A stretch of 64,000 nucleotides of DNA. Origin: an uncultured Methanomassiliicoccales archaeon (GTDB lineage: Archaea; Thermoplasmatota; Thermoplasmata; Methanomassiliicoccales; Methanomethylophilaceae). Shown piece after piece: positions 42,332-46,719 of this stretch. The translations under genes were made by a program, and so were the position numbers. Where the stretch lies: assembly GCA_949292635.1 (NCBI GenBank), contig CASEZY010000004.1, positions 62,001 through 126,000 of the forward strand. The letters are read 5' to 3'. The notes under the pieces are model-generated. The model was not told where the DNA came from. It did no database searches and saw nothing but the letters and a program-made list of their open reading frames with translations. Within the stretch, counting starts at the first letter, position 1; every line of letters starts with the position of its first letter.

Positions 42332-42488
42332 GGGATGATGTTCTGACAATCGAAGAAATGCGGGAGATTGTCAGAGCGCATAAGAAGCAGTAAACAACGA
42401 TAGTTCGGAACTCTTGTGATCCGATACCGTGTTACGGAAGATCCGCCGGATCACAAACGTTAAGATCACAGGATCTAGTAATCAAGTA

Positions 42489-44498
42489 ATGTACAGCTCC
42501 ACCAGCCCTTCCGTAAAATCCGTCGTCATGGACAATCAGATCAAATTGCCCAGATTCCAACGTAAGAAGACATGGAAGGACAAGGCCCGTTTTGAGCTGT
42601 GTATCAGTTTGTTCAAAGGCTACCCATTGGGAACCATTGTCGTCAAAAAAGACGAAAAGGGCGGCAGAACAACCAAATGGCTGTTGGACGGCAGACAGAG
42701 GAAGGATACTTTGGTGGAGATGCAGAATCCCGAAACCATCTACAGGTGGGCAAGAGGGTACCTGGGGTTCCGCATCAGCGATTCAAAAGAAGATATAGCA
42801 AGGATGTTCCGTAAGAAACTGGACGATTACATTCAGTTTGAACATGACTCCGAAGAGGATGAGAATTCCGGAGAGGAGTATCCGGATCAGGACGACACAC
42901 CCGGTAGAGAACCTGAGCTTGATCCGGGATTGAACGATCTGCTGAGGATTATCTGCGCTGTGCACCCAATGAGAGGAAAGAACAGCGAGTTCGGAAAGCC
43001 GTTCCTTTTCGAAGGATACCGCGCAACCTATATTCGCAAAGACAACGAAACTGGAAGGCCATACGTTGACGGAGAGAAACTTGTCAAATGGCTCAGCCCA
43101 TGGATTGACAACGTCGATGCCGAATCGCTGGAAGCTAAAGATATCGAAGAGTGGTTCGATAACGGTGACGATAACCTCCGCAGGGAAGTTGAGAGAAACA
43201 TTGGTGGGATCCGCAATTCGGTGAAAACGCTGCAGTTGATAAACGACAGGATGAACAATGCCCCCATCCTGATGATTGAACTGGACAATTCCTGCGAGAG
43301 CGCAGATTCCAGAAAGATCTTCGAGATTATCAATACCAAGGGAGAACCTCTCACCGGCGCCGAAATTCTATCAGCAAAACCCGACTGGAATGTTCCTGTT
43401 GATGTTGACGATGAAGAGAAAACGGCACACATCAGGAGCCTTTACGGTGTCCTTGGTACGGAAGTAAACGATGCCGTCAGATGGGATATTGCCGCCACTT
43501 TTACCGACAGCATCACCGATGATGCGTCATTCATTCTCGGAGATGTCGTAAAAACTAGGTTCGAAGACTGCCGCAACAACGAGAAGATGTTCGAGCAGAA
43601 AATGACTGCCGGATTCAAGTTGTTGTCCGGGAGGTATCTCAACTCGTTGACAAAGAACGACATAGACCGCCTCCCGAAGACACTCGAAGACGAGGGTGGA
43701 TGGGAGCATATCGAATTCGCTAACGAAATTGCCGGCATATGCAAGGTGCTTCTCTCGGATTCGGCATTCGAAAAATTCAAACGTGCCGACGTAAGCCTCT
43801 GGGATCTTCTGAGCAACGCCATCGCCATGAACTTCCTGCTGTTAATGATCAAGAAGTGGAAGGAACTAGGAAAACCCACAGCAAAAGGCAACCCCAGAAG
43901 AGAGACTATCTCATGTGCCAGACGTTTGTTTGACAGAATGTTCTTCGAATACTGCACCAGCGTATGGCGCGGTGCCAGCGATTCCAGACTCACTCGCAAT
44001 CTGGAAGGCGACCTGGATGCAATGTTCGAGATTGTGCCGGAAGACGAGTGGAACAAACTCATTGACAGTGTCTACACAGACAACAGAATCGGCGGTCAAC
44101 CCGCGTCTCAGAAAATCATGAAGGCGCTGCTGTACTATTTCACACTGGTTCGCAGCAACATCGAACTAGGTGAAGGGTATGAAATGGATCACGTCATCCC
44201 CAAGGGAAGGATAACAAGTTCCAACCAGGATGCCGATTCTCAAGATACAATGATCAATCTGGCACTTCTCCCCAGAGATCTCAACGAAAGGAAAAGCGAG
44301 AATGACATATCCGCTCTCGATCCCGAATCTAGAAGAAGGATCTGTCAGTTCGAAGACCTTGATCCGGAAAATGTTATCGACATGATCAACAAGGCAGACT
44401 TCCCCAGATTGAGAGAGATGAGGAAGAATCTGCCCGACACGATCAAAGAAGACAGAAAAGCCTTCGCAACCTGCTCCGGGCACTGGATCCTGAACTGA
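42489..44498 (+). CDS. DUF262/HNH (GmrSD-type) nuclease-like defence protein
   Basis: This is a 669-aa protein. The N-terminal DUF262 (ParB/Srx-like) domain has LPRFQRKKTW, YPLGTIVVKK and WLLDGRQRKDTL. A long helical middle follows, then a C-terminal HNH-like nuclease with YEMDHVIPKGR and MINLALLPRDLNERKS. This layout is that of GmrSD-like or Type IV modification-dependent restriction proteins. The ATG at 42489 is 27 bp after a TATA-like cgttaaga; the frame extends to a GTG at 42429. It lies directly upstream of a methylase-endonuclease pair. Confidence 0.8.
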   Translation: MYSSTSPSVKSVVMDNQIKLPRFQRKKTWKDKARFELCISLFKGYPLGTIVVKKDEKGGRTTKWLLDGRQRKDTLVEMQNPETIYRWARGYLGFRISDSKEDIARMFRKKLDDYIQFEHDSEEDENSGEEYPDQDDTPGREPELDPGLNDLLRIICAVHPMRGKNSEFGKPFLFEGYRATYIRKDNETGRPYVDGEKLVKWLSPWIDNVDAESLEAKDIEEWFDNGDDNLRREVERNIGGIRNSVKTLQLINDRMNNAPILMIELDNSCESADSRKIFEIINTKGEPLTGAEILSAKPDWNVPVDVDDEEKTAHIRSLYGVLGTEVNDAVRWDIAATFTDSITDDASFILGDVVKTRFEDCRNNEKMFEQKMTAGFKLLSGRYLNSLTKNDIDRLPKTLEDEGGWEHIEFANEIAGICKVLLSDSAFEKFKRADVSLWDLLSNAIAMNFLLLMIKKWKELGKPTAKGNPRRETISCARRLFDRMFFEYCTSVWRGASDSRLTRNLEGDLDAMFEIVPEDEWNKLIDSVYTDNRIGGQPASQKIMKALLYYFTLVRSNIELGEGYEMDHVIPKGRITSSNQDADSQDTMINLALLPRDLNERKSENDISALDPESRRRICQFEDLDPENVIDMINKADFPRLREMRKNLPDTIKEDRKAFATCSGHWILN

Positions 44499-44546: not shown

Positions 44547-45401
44547 ATGAACGGCGGATCGCTAAGACCATATCTTAAGTGGGCAGGAGGCAAACGTCAG
44601 CTCCTCGATCCGATCGGAAGACTCGTCCCCTCCTTTGAGGAATATTACGAACCGTTCGTTGGTGCCGGTGCGGTACTGTTCTCTCTGCACCCAGAGAAAG
44701 CGGTCATCAACGATACCAACACCGAGCTCTGCATGACCTACGAAACTGTCCGCGATGATGTAGACGGATTGATAGAACTGCTGAAGAACCACTCCGAAAT
44801 GCACAGACTTCGCGGAGGAGAGTACTTCTACGAAGTCAGAGCGATGGACAGAGACCAGAATTTCCGCAATATCGGCAAGACCGAGAGGGCAGCTCGCACA
44901 ATCTATCTGAACAAAACCTGCTACAACGGATTGTACAGAGTGAACTCCGACGGATACTTCAACGCCCCATTCGGCAAGTACCGCAACCCATCCATATTCG
45001 AAGAAGAGGTTTTGCGTGCCGTTAGCGAGTATCTTAACAAAAACGATGTCAAAATTCTTAATGGCGATTTCTCCGACGCTGTCGAAGACGCCCTAAGGGG
45101 GGGGGGGCAACGGTTCGTTTACTTCGACCCGCCGTACGACAGCCTTCACAACAGCGGATTCACAGGTTATCAGGCAGGCGGATTCTCCAGAGATGACCAG
45201 ATTCGTCTGCGCGATTTGATGGTTAAACTAACCGAAAACGGTGTCAAGTGCCTTCTGAGCAATGCAGCCACCGAGTTCATAGTCACCATCTACTCCGAGA
45301 TTCCTGAATTCCATATCGACTACGTCGAAGCCACCAGAATGATCAACTCCGTAAGTACCGGGCGCGGAAAGGTTCCGGAAGTTCTCGTGAGGAATTGGTG
45401 A
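44547..45401 (+). CDS. DNA adenine methylase (Dam/DpnM class, D12 family)
   Basis: This 284-aa protein has the SAM-binding PYLKWAGGKRQLLDPI at the N-terminus, YYEPFVGAGAVLF, and the catalytic motif FDPPYDSL. These define an alpha-class N6-adenine methyltransferase like DpnM, typical length about 280. A run of eleven G at 45097-45107 encodes three glycines just before the catalytic motif; gain or loss of one G would truncate the enzyme. It is followed 2 bp later by the probable endonuclease gene. Confidence 0.92.
   Translation: MNGGSLRPYLKWAGGKRQLLDPIGRLVPSFEEYYEPFVGAGAVLFSLHPEKAVINDTNTELCMTYETVRDDVDGLIELLKNHSEMHRLRGGEYFYEVRAMDRDQNFRNIGKTERAARTIYLNKTCYNGLYRVNSDGYFNAPFGKYRNPSIFEEEVLRAVSEYLNKNDVKILNGDFSDAVEDALRGGGQRFVYFDPPYDSLHNSGFTGYQAGGFSRDDQIRLRDLMVKLTENGVKCLLSNAATEFIVTIYSEIPEFHIDYVEATRMINSVSTGRGKVPEVLVRNW
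45097..45107 (+). repeat. G11 homopolymer inside the adenine methylase gene
   Basis: Eleven consecutive G encode part of Arg and three Gly, in frame, a few codons before the DPPY motif. Such tracts in restriction-modification genes are known hot spots for slipped-strand phase variation. Confidence 0.9.
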
Positions 45402-45402
45402 C

Positions 45403-46719
45403 ATGTCATCCGATACAGAGGAAACCGGCACAATCCGCAAGAACGAAGATGCATGGGTACGTCTGTTTTCGGAATGTGATATTCTCGGCACAGTGTCGAG
45501 AGACGGTATTGCCCCTGTTACCGCCGAACAGATGAAGAGCATCGGGAAGAGGGAACCTCGCTTAATGGCGAAGATTGAAAACCGGGATTCGATGCCCGAC
45601 ATTCTCCGTGTGAATCATCTGTGTGTGCTGCCTGTAAAGAGCAGAGGAAACTATGCCATAGGGCATTTTGATGCCTTCCTCGATACGGATTACACAGACA
45701 TTACAGTAGAAAGGCTCGCCGTTAACAGAAAGTTCGAAATGCTCGATCCTTTCTCGATTCACAAAGAACCAAGCGTAATTCTTACCGCATTCAACTACGG
45801 CATTTTATCAAAAATTGTCGGACAAGAGGTAGCTATGACGAACTTCGGAAGAGAGTCTTCCGATTCGTTCAGTTACAGCATCGATGATTTGGATGATTCC
45901 ACAACACACATTCTCGAAGTAGACGGTTCTCAGATGGAGATGGATGGTGTCTTCGAGAGCGAAGACTGCATCATCAATATCGAAGCGAAAATGGGCATTA
46001 GAGACAGTTTCCTCGCACGTCAACTGTACTACCCATATCGCATGATGGAGAAGCGGTGCTCCAAACACATCATCAATGTGTTTATGACCTACACACCGGG
46101 ATCTATCTATCTACACACCTATGATGTCAGTGATCCGTTCAGGTACAACTCGTTTGTAGAAACGGGCAGATATCGGTTCGATCTTTACGATCACGTCAGC
46201 CCCAATGACATCCTAGCTGCCGTTAAGAATACAACCCCTGCACCCGAACCTAATCTTCCTTTCCCTCAGGCGGATTCGATGCAGAAGGTGTTCGAATCGT
46301 TAGAGATTATGAGTTCTCAACCCGGCATTACCGATGCAGACCTTGCTTACAGGCTGAGCGTAGATGTTAGACAGGGGGGATATTACGGAAATGCCTGCGG
46401 ATACCTGGGCCTCTCTTATAGAGTTAGAGAAGGTGGCAGAATCGTAAACCGCCTTACGGACGATGGTCTCAAAATGATGACTTTAGGTATGCAGGATAGA
46501 ATCCTTCTGATGACCAAACTGATGGCTAAAAGGGGCGTCTTCCATAGATTCATACCGGAAGTCATCGGGACGGGAACATTGCCTGAAAAACCTGAAATTG
46601 CGGAGTGGATCCGCAACAACATCAGCAGTATGGATCCCGATAAAGGAACCCCAGACCGCAGAGCCGGGACAATCAGGACCTGGCTTGCCTGGATTCTTAA
46701 AGAGTGCAACAATCAGTGA
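45403..46719 (+). CDS. Probable type II restriction endonuclease
   Basis: This is a 438-aa protein. The segment MEMDGVFES...INIEAKMGIRDSFLARQLYYPYRMM is a PD-(D/E)xK nuclease core: D in MDG, E-x-K in IEAK, then a Q-containing helix. The C-terminal part from about residue 300 looks like a winged-helix specificity domain. Placement right behind an adenine methylase gene, with 1 bp between stop and start, makes it the cognate endonuclease. I cannot give the recognition site. Its end overlaps the peroxiredoxin gene by 7 bp. Confidence 0.75.
   Translation: MSSDTEETGTIRKNEDAWVRLFSECDILGTVSRDGIAPVTAEQMKSIGKREPRLMAKIENRDSMPDILRVNHLCVLPVKSRGNYAIGHFDAFLDTDYTDITVERLAVNRKFEMLDPFSIHKEPSVILTAFNYGILSKIVGQEVAMTNFGRESSDSFSYSIDDLDDSTTHILEVDGSQMEMDGVFESEDCIINIEAKMGIRDSFLARQLYYPYRMMEKRCSKHIINVFMTYTPGSIYLHTYDVSDPFRYNSFVETGRYRFDLYDHVSPNDILAAVKNTTPAPEPNLPFPQADSMQKVFESLEIMSSQPGITDADLAYRLSVDVRQGGYYGNACGYLGLSYRVREGGRIVNRLTDDGLKMMTLGMQDRILLMTKLMAKRGVFHRFIPEVIGTGTLPEKPEIAEWIRNNISSMDPDKGTPDRRAGTIRTWLAWILKECNNQ

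Follow-up and report, generated by a model that had tools for sequence, protein, structure and literature searches.

A G11 tract in a methanogen adenine methylase gene as a candidate contingency locus for a restriction-modification system

Introduction

Could a run of eleven G residues within a DNA methylase gene of a methanogenic archaeon switch that gene ON and OFF and, if so, how would a cell fare with the methylase OFF beside an intact endonuclease gene? Textbooks describe poly-G phase variation in a handful of pathogenic and commensal bacteria. The locus studied here lies in a 64,000-nucleotide stretch of DNA (the window) from an uncultured Methanomassiliicoccales archaeon of the family Methanomethylophilaceae, which is identified as a methanogen by a coenzyme F430 synthase gene in the window scoring above its curated cut-off. 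An earlier sequence-only reading proposed that the tract makes the methylase phase variable and remarked that such restriction-modification is rarely described in archaea. Our literature searches agree with that remark, as no archaeal poly-G switch was seen in the available portions of the open-licence literature on homopolymeric tracts, contingency loci and phase-variable archaea, and nothing was found there on phase variation in Methanomassiliicoccales or on slipped-strand mispairing in methanogenic archaea. The portions available of a survey of frameshifts in 1106 prokaryotic genomes contain no archaeal case of phase variation (PMC3711429), those of a 99-genome homopolymer study, which included 18 archaea, stress poly(A) and poly(T) (PMC2831843), and those of a survey of archaeal restriction systems use the term 'phase-variable' only for the surveys it cites (PMC10609329). 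A 2025 review, again in the portion available, expects future archaeal surveys to inform explanations of phase variation (PMC11868660).

We consider it likely that the G11 tract is a slipped-strand contingency locus able to toggle the whole restriction-modification system, and that it belongs to a genome-wide set of poly-G tracts. This reading draws on the tract and the frames that it sets, on the OFF allele that a relative carries independently, on the distribution of run lengths in the genome, on the absence of repair genes and on the spacing of the two genes. Coordinates are collected in Table 1.

Table 1. Features of the window and poly-G or poly-C tracts elsewhere in its genome (G000) and in the relative G034; L numbers are sequence loci, with positions counted within each locus
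Feature	Location	Positions	Strand	Remark
GmrSD_N (DUF262-type) protein gene, 689 aa	window	42429-44498		directly 5' of the methylase
DpnM-like D12-class adenine-N6 DNA methyltransferase gene, 284 aa	window	44547..45401	+	ON as assembled
G11 tract	window	45097..45107	+	codons 184-187 (R-G-G-G); proposed slippage switch
DPPY, catalytic motif IV	window	45126..45137	+	codons 194-197; lost upon a one-base slip
Out-of-frame stop for G12 (or G9)	window	45194..45196	+	slip in silico
Out-of-frame stop for G10 (or G13)	window	45217..45219	+	slip in silico
Methylase stop/endonuclease start junction, TGA-C-ATG	window	45399..45405	+	proposed point of translational coupling
Type II restriction endonuclease gene, 438 aa	window	45403..46719	+	Pfam DUF6996, DUF6997, DUF7226
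C11	G000, L132	2382-2392		shortly upstream of a TATA-like box (by eye) of an ABC ATPase gene
G10	G000, L130	2443-2452		between genes, within a hairpin resembling a terminator and next to a short T run (by eye)
Tracts	G000, L125, L127, L128			within or next to the leaders of large proteins that have signal-peptide-like segments; BspA repeats in L127
Tract	G000, L126			at the 5' end of an HTH_10 regulator
Tracts	G000, L129, L131, L133			in or near reading frames without identification
G10	G034:C17, L175	4031-4040		splits a Type I specificity (HsdS) gene

The methylase and its tract

The methylase reading frame matched Pfam PF02086 (E 2e-61), TIGR00571 dam (264.8 bits against a cut-off of 114.85) and the PADLOC model MTase_II for Type II methylases (E 3e-90). 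Its closest solved structure, aligned over the full length, was PDB 2dpm (DpnII M1; E 5.3e-75), which we take to be DpnM of Streptococcus pneumoniae. The catalytic motifs of the window protein are intact, with EPFVGAG and DPPY conserved in an alignment with 12 homologues. The neighbouring GmrSD_N gene is likely a separate, Type IV-like defence gene.

An in-frame run of eleven G just before DPPY was the starting observation of the sequence-only reading, and it was confirmed, with the motif lying ten codons downstream. The tract is the sole run of G or C of at least 8 in the whole window, and the four overlapping G8 matches that the window contains are not an unusual number (mean of 5.62 in shuffled sequences, at least four in 72 of 100 shuffles). 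The Gly-rich insert that it encodes was missing from all 12 aligned homologues, and in the alignment with DpnM the three Gly-rich residues fall opposite a gap. In an AlphaFold2 model (mean pLDDT 80) the tract residues form a loop between a helix (residues 175-184) and a strand (189-193) that precedes motif IV. Both its absence from the homologues and its position in a modelled loop suggest that the enzyme tolerates the insert, which would suit a switch.

When tract lengths from 8 to 14 were computed, a full-length methylase was obtained only with G8, G11 and G14, so that homopolymer length sets the coding frame, as in a contingency locus. With G10 the product was 223 aa and with G12 216 aa, both frameshifted before DPPY, and the endonuclease reading frame was unchanged at every simulated length. 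The proposal that a single-base slip would truncate the enzyme ahead of its catalytic motif and leave the endonuclease gene intact was thus borne out in silico.

The partner endonuclease and the OFF state

The gene adjoining the methylase matched the PADLOC model REase_II PDLC03513 (E 2.7e-60, residues 13-434), and its Pfam domains distinguish it from the DpnM system. An alignment of endonucleases, which omitted two loci with an in-frame stop at their given coordinates (L086 and L093), contained four invariant residues, E179, D181, E194 and K196, in an E-x-D and E-x-K pattern. A search of solved structures returned nothing significant and a fold search nothing below E 1e-3, the top matches being the Cas4-family protein ACE1 and winged-helix regulators; no copy was found in viral contigs. 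Among 80 methylase loci from named genomes, 43 had an endonuclease homologue 3' of the methylase. With a methyltransferase whose motifs are intact and a separate endonuclease gene adjoining it, the pair is classed by sequence as a two-gene Type II restriction-modification system, whose shared DNA site is a prediction. In genome G001 an endonuclease homologue lies at the extreme end of contig C18 (L166) and no methylase was found in that genome, whose assembly may break at the methylase.

The sequence-only reading had warned that the OFF state would be dangerous unless the two genes were coupled. This concern is answered in part, in that the close spacing stood up and the coupling itself is something we infer. 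The endonuclease start lies 1 nt past the methylase stop both in the window genome and in the relative G034, where the junction reads TAA-C-GTG, and in each of 22 further loci considered, out of the 43 that have the pair, the closest endonuclease start was located between 26 nt before and 22 nt after the methylase stop, an 8-nt overlap being common. A slipped methylase would stop approximately 184 to 207 nt ahead of the endonuclease start. Given that the endonuclease starts right beside the methylase stop, premature termination of the methylase would probably also halt translation of the coupled endonuclease; cells in the OFF state would translate the endonuclease poorly and could survive.

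The gene pair in a relative

Searches of 102 genomes of the family returned a methylase match in 12 and an endonuclease match in four, the window's own genome being included in both counts. The best methylase match outside the window genome was in G034, a member of a different genus, where the protein was 61-63% identical to that of the window and was followed by the same endonuclease (48% identical, frame intact). The G034 methylase has a G11 tract of its own, located near codon 30 as opposed to approximately codon 185 in the window, and neither genome carries a tract at the site used by the other. As assembled, the G034 methylase is OFF, with a product of only 39 aa, and G10 or G13 would give 283 or 284 aa. 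With one genome per species, the methylase is found ON in the window genome and OFF in G034 by way of different tract sites. Such a pair of tracts, placed differently in the one gene and leaving it ON in one genome and OFF in the other, would be expected if switches are gained recurrently, and the reading of the methylase as phase variable is supported by this second allele together with the computed frames.

The frameshift in G034 could instead be taken as fixed decay, in which a tract arose by chance in what is merely a pseudogene. We regard this as very unlikely, since the G034 frame remains open for 250 codons past the tract at approximately 61% identity, with the invariant columns kept and the endonuclease intact.

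Among 86 methylase loci (match at E 1e-20), a run of at least nine G inside the gene or within 60 nt of it occurred elsewhere only at the G034 locus, which is represented by two entries (L032 and L173). Two other methylase loci contained A9 runs (L051 and L034), and the bacterial homologue from Jeotgalibaca caeni (L104) had a G8 run at position 1227, in the 5' part of the gene. In a different family of the class, five methylases with the same pair (L241, L242, L243, L258 and L260) contained no tract of at least nine, the G9 of L241 being outside the gene. A second copy of the window tract and its flanks, with variable tract length, was sought in viral contigs and none was found.

Poly-G tracts across the window genome and G034

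Runs of G or C of at least 6 numbered 380 in the genome of the window; 25 were exactly 7 long, length 8 was missing altogether and ten measured 9-12. The means under an order-3 Markov model, with the window sequence as training data, were 112 runs of exactly 7, 25 of exactly 8, 7.6 of at least 9 (maximum 14) and 0.6 of at least 11 (maximum 2), the last compared with five observed. The spectrum is therefore one of depletion at 7-8 followed by an isolated peak at 9-12. Runs of 7-8 are far below expectation, as if slippable runs were selected against, and under this model chance does not account for the shortage at 7-8 or for the surplus at 11 and above, whereas the bare count of runs of at least 9 is within its reach. 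The tracts are thus longer than the genome predicts but, counted from 9 upwards, not exceptionally frequent.

One of the ten tracts is that of the window methylase, and the others are distributed among leaders, a regulator, intergenic DNA and further reading frames (Table 1). At L128 the frame is open from the leader ATG. That of L125 is closed when read from its leader ATG, with another ATG following the tract, and that of L127 is closed from the upstream ATG (read by eye). The C11 of L132 could tune transcription of the ABC ATPase gene. A homologue of the surface protein of L125 in a genus-mate (G094, L207; 50% identity over 395 aa) has a similar start region, but its tract lies upstream of the ATG, unlike that of L125, pointing by sequence to a further case of independent placement. 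A codon-usage score intended to assign genus-mate tracts mostly failed (5 or less in 19 of 21 loci), and no Pfam match was obtained for eight of 20 tract-flanking pieces from the window genome, genus-mates and G034.

Tracts were far more numerous in G034, with 97 of at least 9 compared with a simulated mean of 2.5 and a maximum of 5. Lengths were tabulated for 27 of these, contained in 20 stretches selected for having tracts: two of 9, two of 10, seven of 11, 14 of 12, two of 13 and none of 8. Nine shared a common leader layout, consisting of an ATG, about 16-21 codons, a G11 or G12 tract and a signal peptide (loci L168, cut by a contig end, L169, L174, L176, L177, L178, L179 and L180 among them), and tract length differed between these paralogues. 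Both of the leader loci scanned with Pfam, L174 and L178, contained BspA-type repeats. Elsewhere in G034 a tract comes between a signal peptide and a periplasmic binding protein (L181), another interrupts a ResIII helicase (L185), and the split HsdS gene of L175, both halves of which match Methylase_S, is a second candidate restriction switch. The one-contig genome G012 has a glycosyltransferase split by G10 (L222) and another tract in a repeat-domain protein (L221), and such tracts also occur in the one-contig genome G014.

All nine G034 leaders are closed (OFF) from the leader ATG as assembled, L169 having an alternative in-frame ATG upstream, a uniformity that might point to a different use of the tracts or to assembly bias. 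One such use would be productive slippage during transcription or translation, so that every cell would contain full and truncated protein in a fixed proportion. The uniformly OFF leaders fit this explanation, and transcriptional slippage on A and T runs occurs in bacterial IS elements, according to the available part of one report (PMC1088944). Since the window gene is in frame in the DNA, slippage of this kind would only lower its output, and tract lengths vary between the G034 paralogues; we give productive slippage very little credence. Errors of homopolymer assembly or base calling might likewise be suspected in a 21-contig draft (G000) and an assembly of approximately 70 contigs (G034) with some tracts at contig ends. 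Against this, the window tract is in frame in a conserved protein that is otherwise intact, similar tracts are present in the one-contig genomes, and a family of leaders with a single layout is not what random error would yield, making an artefact highly improbable.

Mismatch repair and the proposed switch

None of the 102 family genomes had a MutS_V match over the cut-off, one giving a weak match short of it, and 11 of 14 controls were positive; NucS_C was found in none of the 102 (controls positive in 7 of 14); completeness was at least 90% and contamination at most 5% in 45 of these genomes. Having neither MutS over the cut-off nor NucS, the family is predicted to experience fast, uncorrected slippage in long G runs. 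The link between repair loss and tracts is correlative and may not be specific, as further families of the class have long G runs too.

The same absence of repair raises the question of neutral hypermutability, in which G runs drift and a tract that happens to lie in a tolerant loop slips with its switching unselected. The depletion of 7-8 runs, as if slippable runs were harmful, would agree with this, as would the tracts that are intergenic or in genes without identification, which also weigh against our own reading. An isolated peak at 9-12 beyond a gap at 8 is not the decay curve that drift would leave, however, and two methylases acquired tracts at different sites. The identified tract genes, moreover, encode surface, restriction, glycosylation and regulatory functions, classes known for phase variation. 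On balance we judge purely neutral drift to be unlikely.

Under the switch reading that we prefer, slipped-strand mispairing at replication would add or remove one G from the tract and would go uncorrected in a lineage lacking MutS and NucS. The methylase would then toggle reversibly between the full-length (G8, G11 or G14) and truncated forms, and with coupled translation the whole restriction-modification system, and with it the methylation pattern of the cell, would toggle together. The G11 locus would belong to a collection of poly-G switches spread over the genome, with surface proteins among their targets.

The mechanism is of a known kind. A CpG methylase of Mycoplasma agalactiae, reported to be phase variable, also has a mid-gene poly(G) whose length decides truncation, although that organism is a bacterium and the enzyme a cytosine methylase, whereas the window gene is an archaeal adenine methylase followed directly by an endonuclease (PMC9465063, available part). 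Helicobacter pylori likewise combines homopolymer-switched ON/OFF methylases with switched surface-protein genes, but it is a bacterium and the enzymes described there are Type IIG and Type III enzymes and S subunits (PMC3936762, available part). Campylobacter phasomes resemble the present case in having many hypermutable simple repeats per genome, in bacteria rather than methanogenic archaea (PMC6321876, available part). What is new is the use in a methanogen, apparently at one of many loci, in a lineage without mismatch repair.

A broader proposal, to which we lean only slightly, is that a methanogen family lacking both known mismatch-repair routes runs a bacterial-style phasome, in which reversible poly-G slippage would toggle surface proteins, glycosylation, regulators and whole restriction-modification systems made safe by coupling, with tracts arising repeatedly in the same genes. 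If this is true, surface make-up and virus defence vary from cell to cell in these archaea. With as many as 97 tracts in a single genome and no mismatch repair, this methanogen lineage makes archaeal phase variation directly testable. We make no claim that tract richness is unique to the family of the window, as class-wide counts did not single the family out, a run of at least 9 being present in 207 of 300 genomes of the class (the family included). Another family of the class (f14) has many tracts of at least 9, with up to 77 in one genome.
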